Shown piece after piece: positions 5,987-15,140 of a stretch of DNA of 64,000 nt. The DNA is from Sorangium cellulosum (lineage in GTDB: Bacteria > Myxococcota_A > Polyangia > Polyangiales > Polyangiaceae). Positions within the stretch are counted from its first letter, which is position 1. Every line of letters begins with the position of its first letter. The translations under genes and the position numbers were made by a program. Where the stretch lies: assembly GCA_020720045.1 (NCBI GenBank), contig DYPH01000010.1:1-64000 (forward strand). The letters are read 5' to 3'. The notes beneath the pieces were generated by a model, which worked only from the letters and a program-made list of their open reading frames with translations, did not search any database and had not been told where the DNA came from.

Positions 5987-8900
5987 TCAGTCCGCAAAGA
6001 GGCTTTCGAGGTCCCCCTTCGTCAGCTTCTTTGCTCCACCAAGGTCTTCGGAAAGCACGGCGCCGACGAGTTCCCTTTTCTTTCCGCCAAGTTCGAGGAT
6101 CTTTTCCTCGATCGTCCCCTTCGCCACGAGACGGTAGGTCGTCACGACCTTCGTTTGACCGATCCGGTGTGCACGGTCGGTCGCCTGGTCTTCGACCGCG
6201 GGGTTCCACCACGGGTCAAAGTGAACAACCGTATCAGCTGCGGTAAGGTTTAGGCCGGACCCTCCCGCCTTCAAGCTAATGAGGAAGACGGGCGGCCCGT
6301 CGTCGCGCTGGAAGTTCTCCACGCGCGCCTGGCGATCTTTCGTCGATCCGTCGAGGTATTCGTAGGTGACCCCGTCTTTGTCGAGGGCCGCCTTGATGAG
6401 CGCAAGCATGCTGGTGAATTGGGAAAACACGAGCATCCGATGGCCACCCGCGATCGACATCGAAACGAGCTCGCGGAGCGCCGCGAGCTTGCCCGAATCG
6501 TCGTCTTCGAAGCTGCGCGGGAGGCCGAGGAGGCGCGGATCACAGGCTGCCTGGCGGAGGCGCGTGAGGCCGGCGAGGATCTGGAGGTGCGACTTGCCGA
6601 TCCCCTTCTGTTCAACTTCGCCAAGCACCTGCGCGCGGACCTCCTTAAGCACCGACGCGTAGAGATTCGCCTGCTCGGGGGCGAGTTCGCAGATGTTGTC
6701 CATCTCGATCTTCTCCGGAAGATCCTTCGCGACTTCTGCCTTTGTACGGCGGAGAATAAACGGGTGGATCGTCTGCCGGAGCCGTGCGGCCGCTTTCACG
6801 TCGCCCGCGTCGATGGGGCGCGCATAGCGCTCTTCGAACTTCTCGAGGGGGCCGAGAAGCCCGGGGCTCACGAAGTCGAAAATACTCCAGATTTCGGCGA
6901 GACGATTTTCGATCGGCGTGCCTGAAAGGGCGAGCCGGCGCGAGGCGCGAATACGTTTTGCCGCCTTGGCTGTCGCCGAATGCGGATTCTTGATGTGCTG
7001 GGCCTCATCGAGAATGGCGTACCGGAGATCGAGGGTCGAGAAGAGCTCTTCATCGCGCCGCAAGATCGCGTAGCTCGTGAGGATGACGTCGGCATCTTCA
7101 AGTTCGTCGACGGACTTCTTGCGCTGATTTCCGTGCCAAAGAGCCGCCTTGAGCGACGGCGCAAACTTCACAATTTCGCGGAGCCAGTTCGTCACGACGC
7201 TCGTCGGCGCAACAATCAGCGCTTTAAAGGGGGTTCCTGCCTTTTCGTCGGCCGCTTTCACCGAGAGCAGGAGGGTGATCGTCTGAAGGGTTTTGCCGAG
7301 GCCCATGTCGTCGGCCAGGATGCCCCCGGAGCCGATTTCATGAAGAAACGAAAGCCATTGGAAGCCCGCCTCCTGGTAGGGCCGCAGCTGGGCCTTCAGG
7401 TTTCGCGGCTTCTTTGCGCCTTTGATTTCATCGACGTCGCGGAGCTTGGCAAATAGCGCCTTTGCCCCCGCATCGATGGCCGACTTGCCGACCTGACCGA
7501 GGAGTTCTTCGAGGCGCCCCGCTTGAGAGAGCGGGAGTTTCCCGCCGACAGCCCCCGACGTTGCGAGGATCTCCGCCTGGCGCTGGAGCACTGCGCGGAC
7601 CTTCGCAACGTCGATCGGAGCGAAGGACCCATCAGAAAGACGAACGTATCTGCGACCTTCTGAGAGGCAGCGGGCGAGTTCGTCGGAGGTGACGGCGATC
7701 CCTTCGCTCTCGAAGTTGAGTCGCAACGAGAGCCAGTCGACGCCGCTCGAAACACGCGCGTTTGCGACAAGCGACTGGCCGCGCATTTGGACGTCGACGA
7801 GGTCGTCGGGGGCATACAAGTCCCACGTCTCCGGCAGCTGGCCGATCCCCTCGCTCCAAAATTGAATGGCGTCGTCGCCACGGACGATAAATTCTCCCGA
7901 TTCCTCATCGAAGGCGAGGCCGAGATTGCGCAGAAGATTGGCGGCGACTTGTTGACCGGCGATGTCGCAGCGGATGCAGCGGGCGCGCTTCGAGTCCTTG
8001 CCGCCGCGCCGCTCGGGGGCGGTGACGATCACGGGGATGCTCATGCCATCTCCGCGAACTTCCACCTCAGTTTCACCGTAGGCGGCCCGGAGCGATGCAC
8101 GTGCCTCGGTGAGAGTCCCGCCGGCGCGAAGGCGAAAGGTCGGTTCAAGATCGACGACGTCGGCGACCTGAGACAATTCCGGAAGATCGGCCCCCATTTC
8201 AAGCGCGACGCGCGGCAGTCCTTGAGCAATCAATGCCGGCAACCGATCGAGCGGCTCGTGAATGAAGGGGGCCATCTTCAGCCGCTTTAGGACCGAGGGG
8301 CTCACCCGCTTGTCGATGGGGCGTGCAACGCCCTCCTGGGGATCGACGTAGTAGCCGGGACTGCCCTCGAACCACGCCCCCTGCGCGAGGGAAAAGCGAC
8401 GCGGGTCTCCAGCGCGCAAGAACGCGGCACGGACCTGAACGCGATCGCCTTCGGGCGTGAGCTCAAGGTCAAAGCCGGGGCGGAGCGGTTCGTCGCCGAA
8501 ACGGAGCTCCATCAATTGCGGTTCGAGCACAACGCGCTGCCCTTTCAATGCGGCGAGCAAGTCGGCAGCATCTTCTCCGCGAACTTCGAGCGGCCCTTTA
8601 CGCGAACCGGGAGTTGCGTCATCCAACCGTGCAAGAAGCCGAATTGCGTCACGAATCGTGGAGGGATTCTGCGCGAGTAGCGGGATGAACGACCCCGGAG
8701 TTCGGTACGTTCGCGTGTCAGGATCGAGAATACTTACAAGGAGGCCGGTCGGTTTGACCTGCATCCGGAATTCGAGTTTCTTCGGGATCGGCGGAAGCGG
8801 CTCGGGAAGCCACGCCTCGACGCTCGTCGGAACGACGCTTGGACGGCCAGACACGACGGGCGGCGACGGCGCACCGGAAAATGCAGCCGCACGGGCCGCT

Positions 8901-9403
8901 CGGCGACGTGCGCGGCGCCCGAGTCCCTTGCCCTCCTCAAAGCCGTCATCGACAAATGGGCGAAGCGGTGCCGGTGCCGCCCCCTCCGCGTTGGCTCGGG
9001 CCCGCGGGAGTGGTGGAAGAGCGGGGCGCCCCCCGAATCGGGTCGGTTCTGCAGGAGTTTCAGCCGGTTCCGCCTGTTTGGGCCGGTACTGATCGCGAAG
9101 CGCGATAAGAAGCGCACCGACGTGCTTGCAGTGCCCACCAAGCTTTCCAAATACCGGGCACGAGCACTCGGATCGGAACCCGGTCGGCGTGACCTGAAGT
9201 TCGACGCGATAGGGCTCCGGGTCGCTCCCCCGCACGAGTCCTCGGGCGGAGAGTTCGCCAAGAACGACATCGGCGACCGCGCCACGCCGGACGTAATCGG
9301 TTCCGCGCAGGAACGCGCGCGCCCCGAGGAGACGCCGCAACGCGCGATCGGTGAGGGACGAGAGCGCTTCGAGGAAGGGGGTCGTGGTCACTGCACTATG
9401 CAC
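5987..9403 (-). CDS. SWIM zinc-finger SNF2-family helicase/ATPase
   Basis: A 1138-residue Swi2/Snf2 ATPase. The N-terminus has a SWIM zinc finger, C80-x-C82-x9-C92-x-H94, thought to contact DNA or protein. The C-terminal half has the two RecA-like lobes: Walker A region DDMGLGKT, the DEAQ box (DEAQHIKNP), SALSGTPIEN-type motif III (LALSGTPIENR) and motif VI QATDRAHRIGQT. It should be a cytoplasmic DNA-stimulated ATPase that moves on duplex DNA or remodels protein-DNA complexes, as in the HepA/RapA-Rad54 superfamily. Bacterial SWIM-SNF2 proteins are common but their substrates are mostly unknown. No restriction or defence genes are adjacent. Confidence 0.93.
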   Translation of the reverse strand: MHSAVTTTPFLEALSSLTDRALRRLLGARAFLRGTDYVRRGAVADVVLGELSARGLVRGSDPEPYRVELQVTPTGFRSECSCPVFGKLGGHCKHVGALLIALRDQYRPKQAEPAETPAEPTRFGGRPALPPLPRARANAEGAAPAPLRPFVDDGFEEGKGLGRRARRRAARAAAFSGAPSPPVVSGRPSVVPTSVEAWLPEPLPPIPKKLEFRMQVKPTGLLVSILDPDTRTYRTPGSFIPLLAQNPSTIRDAIRLLARLDDATPGSRKGPLEVRGEDAADLLAALKGQRVVLEPQLMELRFGDEPLRPGFDLELTPEGDRVQVRAAFLRAGDPRRFSLAQGAWFEGSPGYYVDPQEGVARPIDKRVSPSVLKRLKMAPFIHEPLDRLPALIAQGLPRVALEMGADLPELSQVADVVDLEPTFRLRAGGTLTEARASLRAAYGETEVEVRGDGMSIPVIVTAPERRGGKDSKRARCIRCDIAGQQVAANLLRNLGLAFDEESGEFIVRGDDAIQFWSEGIGQLPETWDLYAPDDLVDVQMRGQSLVANARVSSGVDWLSLRLNFESEGIAVTSDELARCLSEGRRYVRLSDGSFAPIDVAKVRAVLQRQAEILATSGAVGGKLPLSQAGRLEELLGQVGKSAIDAGAKALFAKLRDVDEIKGAKKPRNLKAQLRPYQEAGFQWLSFLHEIGSGGILADDMGLGKTLQTITLLLSVKAADEKAGTPFKALIVAPTSVVTNWLREIVKFAPSLKAALWHGNQRKKSVDELEDADVILTSYAILRRDEELFSTLDLRYAILDEAQHIKNPHSATAKAAKRIRASRRLALSGTPIENRLAEIWSIFDFVSPGLLGPLEKFEERYARPIDAGDVKAAARLRQTIHPFILRRTKAEVAKDLPEKIEMDNICELAPEQANLYASVLKEVRAQVLGEVEQKGIGKSHLQILAGLTRLRQAACDPRLLGLPRSFEDDDSGKLAALRELVSMSIAGGHRMLVFSQFTSMLALIKAALDKDGVTYEYLDGSTKDRQARVENFQRDDGPPVFLISLKAGGSGLNLTAADTVVHFDPWWNPAVEDQATDRAHRIGQTKVVTTYRLVAKGTIEEKILELGGKKRELVGAVLSEDLGGAKKLTKGDLESLFAD

Positions 9404-9765: not shown

Positions 9766-10542
9766 ATGGGAGCGGAACGGCGGGTAAGGTTCAACGGGAG
9801 AGACGGAGGAGTGCTTCTTCTCGCGTTCGCACTTCTGGCGTGCCACGCGCCCCTCGTTGAAGGGGACGGCGCCGCTGTTCAAGAGGCGACCGACGCCCTC
9901 ACGGAATCCGGTATTCCCTATCAAATTGAGTTACTTGCGGAAGGGCGCTCCCGCGTCGAGGTCCTCATCGACGACGTGCCGCGAGCCCACGCGGCGCTCG
10001 ATACGCCACGGTCGCCGGAACCGATGGCCACCGGCGAGGGACTCCTCGCGCGCATCGAAGACCGAGAACGGAGTGGTACTCGCGCGCGGGAACGGGCCCT
10101 CGAAGAGCTCCTGGAGGCCTTCCCGGAGGTGTCCCGCGCGACGGTGCGCCTCGCAATTCCGAGCGGAGTCGCTGCGCTCAACGGCAACGCCCAAAGCCCG
10201 AAAGCCTCCGTTCTTCTTCAGGAAAGGCGACCGGTTGACGACGCGACGCTCCGCACAATGATCACCCATGCGGAGCCGGAGCTCACGCCGGAGGCGATCG
10301 CCATCGTCCAGCGGGTACGCCCGCCACCTTCCAACGACCTTGTCGTCGTCGGCCCCTTTGCCGTCGCCCCCGGATCGGCGCGCCCGCTGCGGGCGCTCGT
10401 CGTCGCGCTGTCGGGGACCCTCGTCGTTCTCCTGGCAGGCATCCTCGTGTGGTATGTCCGCTCCTTCGCCCATCTTTTCCTGCGCGCGCGTACTGATTCT
10501 GCGCCCCCGTCGGCCCCTTCATCGGAAGAGAACATCCGTTGA
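9766..10542 (+). CDS. SctJ/YscJ/FliF-family ring lipoprotein (orphan)
   Basis: A 258-residue protein with the layout of type III secretion SctJ (YscJ/PrgK) proteins: a signal peptide with lipobox LLAC (Cys26), a first ring-building motif (about 34-79, with SGIPYQIE), a second one (about 105-185, with LLEAFPEVSRATVRLAIP and KASVLLQ), one transmembrane helix (about 208-232) and a short cytoplasmic tail. In known systems SctJ forms the inner-membrane/periplasmic ring. No other secretion or flagellar gene occurs here. Its stop codon overlaps the TTG start of the following Mla ATPase (TTGA), implying translational coupling. A periplasmic ring around the lipid transporter is my inference. Confidence 0.75.
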   Translation: MGAERRVRFNGRDGGVLLLAFALLACHAPLVEGDGAAVQEATDALTESGIPYQIELLAEGRSRVEVLIDDVPRAHAALDTPRSPEPMATGEGLLARIEDRERSGTRARERALEELLEAFPEVSRATVRLAIPSGVAALNGNAQSPKASVLLQERRPVDDATLRTMITHAEPELTPEAIAIVQRVRPPPSNDLVVVGPFAVAPGSARPLRALVVALSGTLVVLLAGILVWYVRSFAHLFLRARTDSAPPSAPSSEENIR

Positions 10543-11291
10543 TTCGTATCGAAAAACTCGGAAAGACCTTTCGCGTCGGCGAGGGGAAGACGAACACGGT
10601 ACTTCGTGACATCAATCTCGAGGTCCCTAAAGGTTGTCTGTACGGACTGATCGGACCTGGGGCCGCAGGAAAAAGCGTTCTTTTGAAGATGCTTACCGGT
10701 CTCTTGCGGCCGGATGTCGGTCGCATCGTCATCGACGATGTTGACGTCACCCAGTCTTCCGAGATCGCCCTCCAAGATCTCCGCAAGCGCATCGGTTTTC
10801 TCTTCCAAAACTATGCACTTTTCGACTCGATGACCGTCGCCGACAACATCGCTTTTCCACTGCGACGACTCATCGATCCCCCGGAAGCCGAAGTTCAGGC
10901 GCGCGTGGTTGAGCGCCTGAAGGCGGTGGCGCTCGCAGGCTTCGGAGATCGCCTCCCGGCGGGGCTGTCCGGCGGCCAAAAGAAGCGCGTTGGTGTCGCC
11001 CGCGCGACGATCACGAACGCGCCGATCGTCCTCTACGACGAACCGGCTGCCGGCCTCGACCCAGTGACTTCGCAAAAGATTTTCGAGCTTCTGCGCGCGG
11101 AACAGCAAGCGTCGGGTGCTACGGTGATCATGGTCAGCTCCGACCTCGATCGCATGCTGACGGTGACAGATCGTGTCGGGATGATGCACCAAGGGCGACT
11201 GATCTTTGACGGCACGACCGCCGAGGCTCAGGCATCGACGAACCCCTACGTGCGCCAATTCGTTCACGGACTCGTCGACGGCCCCCTCTGA
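10539..11291 (+). CDS. mlaF: MlaF-like ABC ATPase, copy 1
   Basis: A 250-residue ABC ATPase of the Mla/phospholipid-transport branch (FDSMTVADNIAFPLR is typical). It has Walker A GPGAAGKS, a Q-loop region FLFQNYALF, the canonical signature LSGGQ, Walker B IVLYDEP and D-loop AGLDP. The H-loop histidine is replaced: the sequence reads MVSSDLD where MlaF proteins have VSHD. It starts with TTG inside the stop of the SctJ-like gene. A second, divergent MlaF lies 2 kb downstream with complementary losses, so the two probably form a heterodimer with one weak ATP site. Confidence 0.88.
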   Translation: MIRIEKLGKTFRVGEGKTNTVLRDINLEVPKGCLYGLIGPGAAGKSVLLKMLTGLLRPDVGRIVIDDVDVTQSSEIALQDLRKRIGFLFQNYALFDSMTVADNIAFPLRRLIDPPEAEVQARVVERLKAVALAGFGDRLPAGLSGGQKKRVGVARATITNAPIVLYDEPAAGLDPVTSQKIFELLRAEQQASGATVIMVSSDLDRMLTVTDRVGMMHQGRLIFDGTTAEAQASTNPYVRQFVHGLVDGPL

Positions 11292-11298
11292 GGCAGCC

Positions 11299-11601
11299 AT
11301 GAAAGACGTCGACATCGACCTCGTGACGCTGGCCGTAACGACGCCGATTCAGCTCTTCGGCCAATGGGCATTTCTACTCTGGGATGCAAAGAGCCTCCCG
11401 GCGGCGACCAAGAAGGGCTCCTGGCCCGACGCAACCCTTGGAAGTGCCATCTATTTCCTCGGTCCCCTCGCAACCGGCATCCACGTCGCCATGACCCGCC
11501 GCGGCTTGGGCCGCCTCAAGGCGCTCGCCTATTTGGCAGGGGTCACCTTCGCGTATGTCGCGCTGAACGCCGTCGTCGCGGAGATCGCGAGCTACTTTTG
11601 A
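11299..11601 (+). CDS. Small multi-pass membrane protein in the Mla operon
   Basis: A 100-residue protein starting MKDVDIDLVT, 7 bases after the first ATPase gene. I see two or three hydrophobic segments (around IYFLGPLATGIHVAM and LAGVTFAYVALNAVVAEI) and no known domain. Its position between ATPase and permease genes suggests an accessory membrane subunit of the transporter. The ATG at 11299 gives near-contiguous spacing to the upstream gene; an earlier in-frame start would overlap that gene by about 90 bases. Confidence 0.65.
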   Translation: MKDVDIDLVTLAVTTPIQLFGQWAFLLWDAKSLPAATKKGSWPDATLGSAIYFLGPLATGIHVAMTRRGLGRLKALAYLAGVTFAYVALNAVVAEIASYF

Positions 11602-11698
11602 AGTGGCGCCATGGCAGCGGCCTCGCTCCATGAATCGCGCAGGCGCGTGACGTCGCTCTGTCACGCGCCGGTAAACTTCTGGTAGCTTCGCCGGCCCC

Positions 11699-12478
11699 AT
11701 GACCGAAGCCGTCCGTAACCCACGCCTCCACGCCCTCGGTGCCGCGAGCATCGAGCTCGCGGAAATCGTTGGGGGAATGGGCGTGCTGTTGGCCCGCATC
11801 CTTGTCCGCATCCACAAGTTCGATGGCGAAGAGCTCGTCAAGAATCTGTATAAGATGGCGGTAAAGTCGCTGCCGATTGTCGCTGTTACCGCCCTCTTCA
11901 CGGGGGCCATTATGGTGATTCAGGCAGCCGTGATCGTGAAGCGATTCAACGCCGAAGGTCTCCTCGGATGGGGCGCCGGTTTCGGTACGTTGCGCGAGAT
12001 CGCGCCGCTTCTCACCGCATTGATGATCTCCGGGCGCGTCGGCGCAAACAACACTGCCGAGCTCGGCACGATGGTTGTGACCGAGCAGATCGACGCTCTT
12101 CGCGTGCTCGCGATCGACCCGATCGCTTTCCTCATCGTTCCGCGTTTCATCGCGATTTTGGCGACGCTCGTCATGATGACGCTCTTCGCGGATGCGCTCG
12201 CCCTCTTCGGAGCGGCGTACACCGGGCAGGGTCTTCTCGGCGTGGAGCCGATGACATTCTTCAACGGCCTTACGGGCGGCTTGCTCGACTTCGGAGATGT
12301 ATTCAATGGGCTTTTTAAGAGCTTCGTCTTCGCGTTCGTCATGGCGCTTGCGAGCTGCCACTTCGGCCTCGCAACAAAGGGCGGAGCGCCCGGTGTCGGC
12401 CGAGCTGTGAATGCGAGCGTCGTTGCAAGTGCCGCAGGAATCTTCGTTCTCGACTACCTCGTGAGCTTCCTCGGGTGA
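11699..12478 (+). CDS. mlaE: MlaE-like permease, copy 1
   Basis: A 259-residue inner-membrane permease of the MlaE/YrbE family. The conserved core is present: FTGAIMVIQ, the cytoplasmic coupling region GTLREIAPLLTALMISGRVGA, and AELGTMVVTEQIDALRVL, which contains the family's E-(I/V)-DAL motif. About five membrane helices are visible. The 97 bases before it contain no gene. Its last codons overlap the GTG start of the second permease (GTGA), so the two are probably made in equal amounts and pair as a heterodimer. Confidence 0.92.
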   Translation: MTEAVRNPRLHALGAASIELAEIVGGMGVLLARILVRIHKFDGEELVKNLYKMAVKSLPIVAVTALFTGAIMVIQAAVIVKRFNAEGLLGWGAGFGTLREIAPLLTALMISGRVGANNTAELGTMVVTEQIDALRVLAIDPIAFLIVPRFIAILATLVMMTLFADALALFGAAYTGQGLLGVEPMTFFNGLTGGLLDFGDVFNGLFKSFVFAFVMALASCHFGLATKGGAPGVGRAVNASVVASAAGIFVLDYLVSFLG

Positions 12479-13323
12479 GCGCCACCACCGAAACTCACCC
12501 CGACCCGTCGCCGCCGGATGCCTCCGAAGGGGTGGAGGCCGAGCTCGGCTTTGTCGGCTCCATCGGTGCCGCGTTTCTCGATATCGCGGTTGCTGCCCGC
12601 GAGCTTTACTCGGTCTTCGTGCGGACGCTCTATTACGTATTTCGCGGGAAGCGGGTCAAAGGGGCGGTGCTCCATCAAATGAACGAGATCGGCGTCAAGT
12701 CGGTTGCCTTCATTTGCATCACGATGGGCTTCATCGGGATGATCCTCGTCTATCAGTCGGGCCTACAGGCGAAACGCGTCGTCCCCGACTTCACGATGCT
12801 CGGGGCGACTTATCTCGAGCTCCTCGTCCGCGACTTCGCCGCATCCATCGGTGCACTCATGCTCGCGACCCGCGTAGGTGCTGGAATTGCCGCAGAAATT
12901 GGCTCAATGGTGGTCACCGAGCAGGTCGACGCGCTTCGGATGTCGGCGGCCGATCCGATCGACTACCTCGTCGTCCCCCGCTTCCTTGCGAGCCTGGTAA
13001 TGACGCTGGCGCTCATCGTCATCGCCGGCACCGTCGCGTTCTGTTCGGGCGCCGCGACGGCGTATGTCTTTTTCGATGTGCGGCCCGACATCTTCTTCAA
13101 TATGCAGCTCGTAGACGTCGGTGACTTCCTCACCGGCTTCACAAAGTGTATGGCCTACGGCGCCGCGATTCCGATCGTGTCGAGCTGGTGCGGGCTTTCG
13201 ACGTTCGGCGGTTCGGAAGGGGTCGGCTGGGCGACGACGCGGGCTGTTGTGAATTCGAGCCTCGCCATCATCATCTTGAACTTCTTCATCTCGGCCGCCG
13301 GCTTCCTCATCTTCCCGGGTTGA
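12475..13323 (+). CDS. mlaE: MlaE-like permease, copy 2
   Basis: A 282-residue second MlaE-family permease with the same core: FICITMGFIGMIL, LLVRDFAASIGALMLATRVGA and EIGSMVVTEQVDALRMSA. It differs from copy 1 by a longer, acidic N-terminus of about 50 residues that could be cytoplasmic. It starts with GTG overlapping the previous stop and ends 4 bases before the second ATPase gene. In E. coli MlaE is a homodimer; two different, coupled permease genes argue for a heterodimer here. Confidence 0.92.
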   Translation: MSATTETHPDPSPPDASEGVEAELGFVGSIGAAFLDIAVAARELYSVFVRTLYYVFRGKRVKGAVLHQMNEIGVKSVAFICITMGFIGMILVYQSGLQAKRVVPDFTMLGATYLELLVRDFAASIGALMLATRVGAGIAAEIGSMVVTEQVDALRMSAADPIDYLVVPRFLASLVMTLALIVIAGTVAFCSGAATAYVFFDVRPDIFFNMQLVDVGDFLTGFTKCMAYGAAIPIVSSWCGLSTFGGSEGVGWATTRAVVNSSLAIIILNFFISAAGFLIFPG

Positions 13324-13327
13324 ACGA

Positions 13328-14071
13328 ATGCTCGCGTTCAAGAACATCAAGAAATCGTTCGGCCCGAAGCAGGTATTGAATGACGTCTCCTTTGACGTCA
13401 AAGCCGGCGAGTGTTTCTTCATCATCGGTGCGTCCGGCGTCGGAAAAAGCGTACTAATTAAACACCTTGTCGGCCTGCTCGCCTGCGATAGCGGCGAAAT
13501 CTGGCTCGACGGTGAAGAGATCAGTCGTTTCGACGAGCAGCAAATGGGCCCCGTCCGGAAGAAGTGCGCGATGGTGTTTCAGCACGCCACGCTCTTCGAC
13601 TCGATGACCTGCGCGGAAAACGTCGCCCTGCCCCTTCGCAAGCACAAAGACATGAACGCCAAGGACGCGCTGGCCGAAGCCAAGAAGCGCCTCGCGGTCG
13701 TTCATATGCAGGCGTTCGCCGACCGCTACCCGCCCGAACTCGGCGACGGTATGCGGAAACGCGTCGCGATCGCCCGCGCGCTCACCGTCGACCCGACCTA
13801 CGTCCTCTTTGACGAGCCGACCACAAGCCTCGATCCCGTCAGCGCGCGACGGGTCGACACCCTCATTCGCGAATTGTGCGACAAGCTCGGCGTCACCTCG
13901 ATCGTCGTGAGCCACGATCTGTCGAGCATCTTCAGCATCGCCGACCGCATCGTCATGCTTTACAAGGGGAAAGTTCTGAAGATCGGAACGCCGGCCGAGT
14001 TTAAAGCGACCGACAACGGCATCATTCAGCAGTTCATCAATGGTCGGGCCGAAGGGCCCATGGATCTGTAA
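13328..14071 (+). CDS. mlaF: MlaF-like ABC ATPase, copy 2 (degenerate signature)
   Basis: A 247-residue Mla-type ABC ATPase with Walker A GASGVGKS, Q-loop MVFQHATLFDSM, Walker B YVLFDEP, D-loop TSLDP and an intact H-loop VSHDL. The signature motif is altered: ELGDGMRKR instead of LSGGM/LSGGQ. It thus keeps the histidine lost in copy 1, while copy 1 keeps the canonical signature lost here. It starts 4 bases after the second permease. An intrinsic-terminator-like hairpin follows immediately, before mlaD. Confidence 0.92.
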   Translation: MLAFKNIKKSFGPKQVLNDVSFDVKAGECFFIIGASGVGKSVLIKHLVGLLACDSGEIWLDGEEISRFDEQQMGPVRKKCAMVFQHATLFDSMTCAENVALPLRKHKDMNAKDALAEAKKRLAVVHMQAFADRYPPELGDGMRKRVAIARALTVDPTYVLFDEPTTSLDPVSARRVDTLIRELCDKLGVTSIVVSHDLSSIFSIADRIVMLYKGKVLKIGTPAEFKATDNGIIQQFINGRAEGPMDL

Positions 14072-14072
14072 C

Positions 14073-14102
14073 GGCGTAATTCGCCGAAATTACGCCTCTT
14101 TT
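14073..14102 (+). terminator. Intra-operon terminator or attenuator between mlaF2 and mlaD
   Basis: A perfect 9-bp stem, GGCGTAATT (14073-14081) with AATTACGCC (14088-14096), has a 6-base loop and is followed by TCTTTT. It starts directly after the second mlaF stop and ends 18 bases before the mlaD ATG. Its form fits a rho-independent terminator, but genes on both sides belong to one transporter. Partial termination, setting the ATPase:MlaD ratio, is a reasonable inference. Confidence 0.7.
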
Positions 14103-14120
14103 GGCAACGACGAGCAGCAC

Positions 14121-15140
14121 ATGGCCCAGGAACGTTCCATTGAAGTCAAAGTCGGCGCGGTCATCCTCGTCGCGTTGACGATCCTCGTCGGCTTCATCCT
14201 TGTGATGGGGGGCCTCTCCTTCCAGCCGACCTACGCGATCTACGTCGACTTCGACAACCCAGGCGGCCTCCAGACTGGCGCCCCCGTGCGCATGGCGGGC
14301 GTCAAGGTCGGGAAGGTCGATACGATTGAGTTCCTCGGCGGCCGCGTCGAAACGAAGCCGAATCGTCGCCCGCTTGTTCGCGTCAAGTTGAAGGTCGAAG
14401 AGCGCGTCCACGAGTCGATCCATGACGACGCCGATTTCTACGTGACGACGCAGGGCGTGCTCGGCGAGCAGTTCATGGCGATCGAACCGGGCAAGGGGAC
14501 GAAGGTCCTCGCCGCCAACGATGAGGTGAAGGGAATCGACCCGCCGCGCCTCGATCTCTTTCTCGCGAAGGGCTACGACCTCCTCGACACGACGGTCAAC
14601 GGCATTCGAAATAACAAAGAACTCATTAGCGATATCGCGACGAACACCGCGGGGCTCGTCAAGAACCTCAACGGCGTTCTTGGCGACAATCGCGAGCGCA
14701 TCAATCGGACCGCTGAGAACCTCGAGAAGCTCTCACTCGAAGCGAAAGACCTTACGGCCCACGCCCGCGAAAACTACGTCGACAACCCGAAGCTCCTCCA
14801 CACTGTCGACAATATTGACAAGCTTTCCAGCGACTTGGCTCGCGATTCTGGCCCGATGCTCAAGGACGCGAAAGAGTCGCTCGCCAACTTGAATCGCATT
14901 TCCGGGGCCGTCGGCGCCCCCGGCGAGGAGCAGAAGCTCCGCAAAGCGATCTCTGATCTCGAGGAACTCGCGACGCGTGCAAATACCGCCGCCGCCGATG
15001 CCCAGAGCATCGTTTCCCACATCAAGAAGGGGCAAGGGACCGTCGGCGCCCTCGTCATGGACGAAGCCCTCTTCGACGACGTTCAGGAGATGGTTCGCGA
15101 TTTGAAGCACAACCCGTGGAAGTTCCTCTGGCGCGAATGA
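14121..15140 (+). CDS. mlaD: MlaD-like MCE-domain lipid-binding protein
   Basis: A 339-residue protein: short cytoplasmic start (MAQERSIEVKVG), one membrane anchor (about residues 12-32), an MCE domain (about 37-130, with FDNPGGLQTGAPVRMAGVKVG) and a long helical C-terminal region (about 140-320) predicted to be coiled and periplasmic. MCE proteins form hexamers that bind phospholipid and pass it between membranes. The ATG at 14121 lies just after the hairpin; a start further upstream would read through the preceding stop region. Its end overlaps the next gene by ATGA. Confidence 0.92.
   Translation: MAQERSIEVKVGAVILVALTILVGFILVMGGLSFQPTYAIYVDFDNPGGLQTGAPVRMAGVKVGKVDTIEFLGGRVETKPNRRPLVRVKLKVEERVHESIHDDADFYVTTQGVLGEQFMAIEPGKGTKVLAANDEVKGIDPPRLDLFLAKGYDLLDTTVNGIRNNKELISDIATNTAGLVKNLNGVLGDNRERINRTAENLEKLSLEAKDLTAHARENYVDNPKLLHTVDNIDKLSSDLARDSGPMLKDAKESLANLNRISGAVGAPGEEQKLRKAISDLEELATRANTAAADAQSIVSHIKKGQGTVGALVMDEALFDDVQEMVRDLKHNPWKFLWRE

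Follow-up and report, generated by a model that had tools for sequence, protein, structure and literature searches.

The open reading frame at 9766–10542 on the forward strand of the window (i.e., the whole 64,000-nucleotide stretch of DNA that was analysed, C182:1–64000) encodes a genuine SctJ: by both fold and homology, it is the inner-membrane ring lipoprotein of a type III secretion system (T3SS). This SctJ very probably belongs to a non-flagellar T3SS export machine whose genes are scattered singly over the genome, and its function most likely lies in protein export (perhaps in the killing of prey) instead of lipid transport. Its gene is followed, in this order, by mlaF1, two mlaE genes, a second mlaF-like gene and mlaD, and the features of the locus are as follows.

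5987–9403, reverse strand: SNF2-family helicase, the conserved divergent neighbour upstream of SctJ (PF00176, E 3e-74).
9766–10542, forward strand: SctJ/YscJ-family lipoprotein gene, 258 aa (PF01514; profile of its relatives to PrgK; EscJ/PrgK fold).
9766–9843, forward strand: signal peptide with lipobox LLAC and predicted lipidated Cys26, codon 9841–9843 (from sequence and the invariance of Cys26).
9844–10011, forward strand: ring-building motif 1 (RBM1), approximately residues 27–82 (AlphaFold2 model; PrgK 19–92 match).
10042–10320, forward strand: ring-building motif 2 (RBM2), approximately residues 93–185 (PrgK domain 2 match).
10393–10458, forward strand: predicted C-terminal transmembrane segment, about residues 210–231 (hydrophobic sequence; modelled helix 202–244).
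10539–10542, forward strand: TTGA overlap of the SctJ stop codon (TGA, 10540–10542) with the TTG start codon of mlaF1 (10539).
10539–11291, forward strand: MlaF-like ATPase 1, mlaF1 (PF00005, E 2e-31; MlaF model NF008809, E 2e-51).
11699–12478, forward strand: MlaE permease 1 (PF02405, E 1.2e-65).
12475–13323, forward strand: MlaE permease 2 (PF02405, E 1.1e-53).
13328–14071, forward strand: MlaF-like ATPase 2 (NF008809, E 4.2e-55).
14121–15140, forward strand: MlaD/MCE protein, with a likely ATG start at 14121 inside a longer open reading frame, 14040–15140 (PF02470, E 3.2e-17).

The Pfam profile of the YscJ/FliF family (PF01514) matched residues 36–181 of the window SctJ with an E-value of 5.2e-10 and 39.9 bits (curated cut-off of 24.4), and the NCBIfam equivalog TIGR02544 gave a score of 16.9, i.e., below its cut-off of 161.95. 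The latter model was matched by 15 of the 17 SctJ relatives in a broad alignment (A1; best E 1.7e-41), and a profile built from these 17 relatives retrieved PrgK (E 5e-25), MxiJ and EscJ over nearly the full length, with FliF ranking behind. Cys26 of the LLAC lipobox was invariant among the 17 relatives. An AlphaFold2 model of the window protein (mean pLDDT 79.6) contained RBM1, RBM2 and a C-terminal helix, with RBM1 matching PrgK 19–92 (Z 9.5, 1.7 Å over 57 residues) and RBM2 matching PrgK domain 2 (Z 11.5, 1.8 Å over 79 residues), and the best Foldseek match of the model was EscJ (E 2.4e-9). The lipobox, the two RBM-like regions and the C-terminal membrane helix that a sequence-only reading of the window had described were thus confirmed, taking sequence, Pfam profile and predicted monomer structure together.

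Four traits expected of an SctJ were found, i.e., homology above the Pfam cut-off, a lipobox signal peptide, two RBMs with a C-terminal helix, and an export apparatus in the genome. A chance similarity or mistaken reading frame was ruled out by profile, fold and selection. An origin from FliF was ruled out as well, with a tree grouping the window protein with injectisome-type SctJ and apart from seven of the eight FliF rows (the eighth being a badly cut frame that was misplaced on a very long branch). A survey of the phylum further revealed SctJ in sctI-sctJ-(sctK)-sctL-sctN clusters of (putative) Bradymonadia-like and other genomes, and these cluster-type SctJ and the Mla-linked SctJ fell together in one tree, apart from FliF.

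The sequence-only reading had treated SctJ as an orphan, with no other T3SS or flagellar gene in the 64 kb. For the window itself this was correct, as genome-wide searches for FlhA/SctV, FliP/SctR, FlhB/SctU, FliR/SctT and FliI/SctN yielded no match on C182:1–64000. The orphan status nevertheless did not hold for the genome (6.34 Mb, estimated to be 100% complete), in which four other contigs carry SctV (C203), SctR with lysC and a FliO-like stretch ahead of it (C149), SctN just after dnaJ and with intact Walker motifs (C322), and a diverged SctU (C96, at the contig end), which directly follows obgE in the sister genome G009. A loss of SctU from the window's genus, as suggested by Pfam, was dropped once a family alignment revealed the diverged copy. 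No SctT was detected in the window's genome, although even its relatives score just 63–78 bits; this absence, together with a very diverged SctU that lacks the NPTH cleavage motif, counts against SctJ being the ring lipoprotein of such a machine. Within the family, the top scores of SctV, SctR, SctU and SctT were obtained with injectisome-type SctX models and not with flagellar ones, and SctN was ambiguous between the SctN and FliI models.

A FliO-like gene also lies beside the non-flagellar SctR at L059:10577–10927 (reverse strand; PF04347, E 1.1e-9), L056:9420–9650, L057, L061, L063 and L064, as it does in the window's genome. Since FliO is normally regarded as flagellar, its position beside a non-flagellar SctR fits an intermediate between flagellum and injectisome.

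In the single-contig relatives G081 and G083, one chromosome carries SctJ, SctV, SctR, SctU, SctT and SctN at six sites far apart from each other, and all six genes were found in each of the non-flagellar relatives G013, G020, G029, G055, G081 and G083. An injectisome-type SctJRTUVN core outside any flagellar context is present, as judged by the SctX-model scores and these six relatives, and instead of the clustering in one locus that is a trait of the needleless "Myxo" T3SS*, a separate locus was found for each gene. The neighbours at these loci recur, i.e., mla for SctJ, PP2C/ddl for SctV, lysC for SctR, obgE for SctU (in part of the family), MaoC for SctT and dnaJ for SctN, and the spacing of dnaJ-SctN and obgE-SctU is as tight as that of SctJ-mlaF1. 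Since each dispersed T3SS gene has its own conserved but unrelated neighbour, conservation of a gene pair gives little evidence of a shared function in this system.

This bears directly on the pairing of SctJ with mlaF1. Our family survey covered 108 genomes, a short SctJ being present in 66, and SctJ was directly upstream of mlaF1 on the same strand in 56 of the 58 genomes in which both genes were located. The same arrangement recurred at several loci in another three families of the order (f2, f6 and f8), and it was also seen in assemblies named as Labilithrix or Polyangiaceae, whose loci were retrieved with a narrower alignment (A2). The TTGA overlap between SctJ and the MlaF-like ATPase gene, pointed out beforehand, indeed spans 4 bp in the window, and an in-frame mlaF1 start allowing such an overlap with the SctJ stop codon was present in 25 of 41 loci (some loci being counted twice). 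The overlap has been maintained for a long time, pointing to selection for co-expression, and such long maintenance weighs against a role of SctJ in the T3SS only. The conserved coupling to mlaF, as well as the identity of SctJ, thus stand from the earlier interpretation, and neither a missing RBM fold nor an unconserved gene pair, the two outcomes named beforehand as refuting it, was observed. The same linkage and overlap data are what favours a lipid-transport role of SctJ, in which it would form a collar or bridge for Mla in the periplasm. We nevertheless regard this role as very unlikely: some f2 genomes have a glutamate dehydrogenase gene (gdhA) between SctJ and mlaF1, SctJ of G012 lies away from mlaF1, and many SctJ across the order lack any Mla gene in their vicinity.

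At several loci in other families of the order (L134, L135, L136, L144 and L164), a protein-kinase-like protein of ~610–690 aa is encoded directly upstream of SctJ, and for L134 and L144 a Pfam match confirmed its kinase domain. This kinase-like protein may be an older neighbour of SctJ.

The operon downstream of SctJ resembles known Mla/MCE transporters (MlaFEDB) in encoding MlaF, MlaE and MlaD homologues, but differs from them in having two ATPases and two permeases, each pair being made up of unlike proteins (10539–14071). Moreover, the second ATPase carries LGDGM where ABC ATPases usually carry LSGGQ, which by its sequence suggests an asymmetric transporter. Between mlaF1 and the first mlaE gene, the window encodes a small membrane protein of about 100 aa (11299–11601; weak SfLAP match, E 0.0046), for which several relatives gave weak tblastn matches at the corresponding position.

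SctJ is no known Mla subunit, and its distribution follows that of the T3SS. Non-flagellar SctV was found in 64 of the 66 SctJ carriers vs. 6 of the 42 non-carriers (p-value of 5e-20) and SctR in 61 of the 66 vs. 5 of the 42, while no association was seen between SctJ and MlaE1 (p-value of 0.56); these p-values ignore relatedness, flagellar and non-flagellar matches were split by the analyst from score and match length, and G004, counted among the SctJ-less genomes, carries an SctJ fragment at a contig edge. None of the 66 carriers was devoid of both SctV and SctR. Conversely, 33 genomes have kept Mla in the absence of both SctJ and a non-flagellar T3SS, and SctN, SctU and SctT are likewise absent from the T3SS-less G085 and G100. 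A tree of MlaE1, MlaE2 and MlaF2 (24 loci) implies that SctJ and the T3SS were lost together, with Mla being retained, on at least two independent occasions. An Mla subunit would be expected wherever Mla is retained, which is not the pattern of SctJ, and the presence of SctJ tracks SctV and SctR instead of Mla. The recruitment to lipid transport that had been proposed for SctJ from the sequence is therefore not borne out.

The loci that have lost SctJ also bear on a dual role, in which SctJ would build the T3SS ring while its co-translation with MlaF1 would tie the level or placement of Mla to the T3SS (e.g., at sites of prey contact). In addition to the linkage and overlap, this explanation could draw on one clade without SctJ and T3SS (L078, L079, L080, L082, L083 and L084), in which the mla operon is broken up, with mlaF1 residing elsewhere and mlaF2 being inverted or displaced. 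(A loss of mlaF1 together with SctJ, as suggested by the T3SS-less loci, was ruled out, since mlaF1 sits elsewhere in those genomes.) In G002 (L081), however, which likewise lacks SctJ and T3SS, the mla operon is intact and its mlaF1 lies immediately next to the SNF2 gene, with no SctJ in between. Moreover, the comparable tightness of dnaJ-SctN and obgE-SctU indicates that operon fusion to unrelated genes is usual in this system, making such a dual role highly improbable. We would give equally little credence to the broader idea that SctJ-MlaF1 co-translation marks a physical or regulatory link from a type III ring to an MCE transporter, by which, for instance, envelope lipids might be supplied or remodelled at secretin-less T3SS sites.

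When SctJ is taken as the ring lipoprotein of a dispersed T3SS, its position before the mla operon would be a conserved chromosomal location involving, at most, shared transcription or translation (cf. dnaJ-SctN and obgE-SctU). By homology to PrgK and EscJ, the protein would be exported and then lipid-anchored through Cys26 at the periplasmic face of the inner membrane, where its C-terminal helix would hold it in the membrane. RBM1 and RBM2 would in turn drive its oligomerisation into a ring encircling the SctR/SctV export gate, with export through this gate presumably being powered by SctN.

The sct genes of the window's genus are fast-evolving, which raises the alternative that its T3SS is a decaying relic and SctJ a non-functional leftover. 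SctJ, SctV and SctR score weakly, SctT was not found, and SctU has lost its NPTH motif. Moreover, the first helix of RBM2 in SctJ lacks nine residues that relatives beyond the genus possess (a gap confined to the window protein and G009 among the 17 rows of A1), and SctJ lies on a very long branch of the tree, suggesting that SctJ of this genus may be degenerating or changing function. The helix loss and long branch likewise count against an intact ring role. In a comparison of the two congeners (the window's genome vs. G009), dN/dS was nonetheless well below 1 for SctJ (0.19), SctU (0.15), SctR (0.06) and SctN (0.055), with values of 0 for MlaF1 and LysC, indicating that the four sct genes are constrained. 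Together with the intact reading frames and the retained Walker motifs of SctN, this makes a relic unlikely.

The NPTH motif of SctU is kept in G013, G020 and G029 and lost in G055, G081, G083 and the window's genus. By locus, it is kept in L066, L067 and L068 and lost in L069, L070, L077, L189:1–789 and L190:2464–3387. Such a loss might be expected of a machine without a needle-length switch. The SctU copy of G068 (L191:2608–3306) is truncated, ending before the cytoplasmic cleavage domain.

In its lipobox, RBM1, RBM2 and C-terminal membrane helix, the window protein resembles the injectisome SctJ proteins PrgK, EscJ and MxiJ, from which it differs by scoring below the NCBIfam cut-off and by the place of its gene before an Mla operon. 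Within the Myxococcota, injectisome-type SctJ, SctR/T/U/V and SctN are known from the needleless T3SS* of Myxococcus xanthus (MXAN_2434–2464) and the secretin-less "Myxo" NF-T3SS of Cystobacterineae (PMC3459982, PMC10433427, PMC12075869). The likeness to the Myxococcus T3SS* rests on SctJ, V, R, U, T and N, of which SctT is missing from our findings in the window's own genome. Whereas the Myxococcus and Cystobacterineae genes are clustered (the latter being known as clusters; PMC3459982), each gene here has a separate locus beside an unrelated gene. Core genes are also spread over several loci in the scattered NF-T3SS of Chlamydiales (PMC3459982), but there at least four loci are involved, three of them with core genes, whereas in the present case six separate loci hold SctJ, V, R, U, T and N, with a FliO-like gene accompanying SctR.

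The needleless T3SS* of Myxococcus drives prey lysis and needs the Kil pilus for its recruitment (PMC12075869, PMC10433427), and one has been proposed for Bradymonadia (PMC11509652). By analogy, one could speculate that the dispersed machine is a predation-type needleless T3SS* as in Myxococcus. A 2023 survey of 17 genomes placed T3SS mainly in the order Myxococcales; it reported Kil-type Tad pili for Labilithrix, whereas Sorangium and Polyangium had none (PMC10196010). Labilithrix assemblies carry SctJ in our data, and Sorangium/Polyangium may be the source of the large T3SS-less genomes. This agreement with the Kil distribution is a lead only.

We found no description of a dispersed T3SS in Polyangiales, or of the SctJ-Mla pairing, in the open-access literature searched, and the scattered T3SS of this order appears to be undescribed so far. 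Our data reveal injectisome-type export machines throughout Polyangiales, where they were probably overlooked as their genes lie scattered singly, and the range of predation-linked needleless T3SS* would thereby be widened. They are an extreme case in which selection, instead of gene clustering, keeps a secretion machine together, and a warning that function may be misread from conserved gene pairs.
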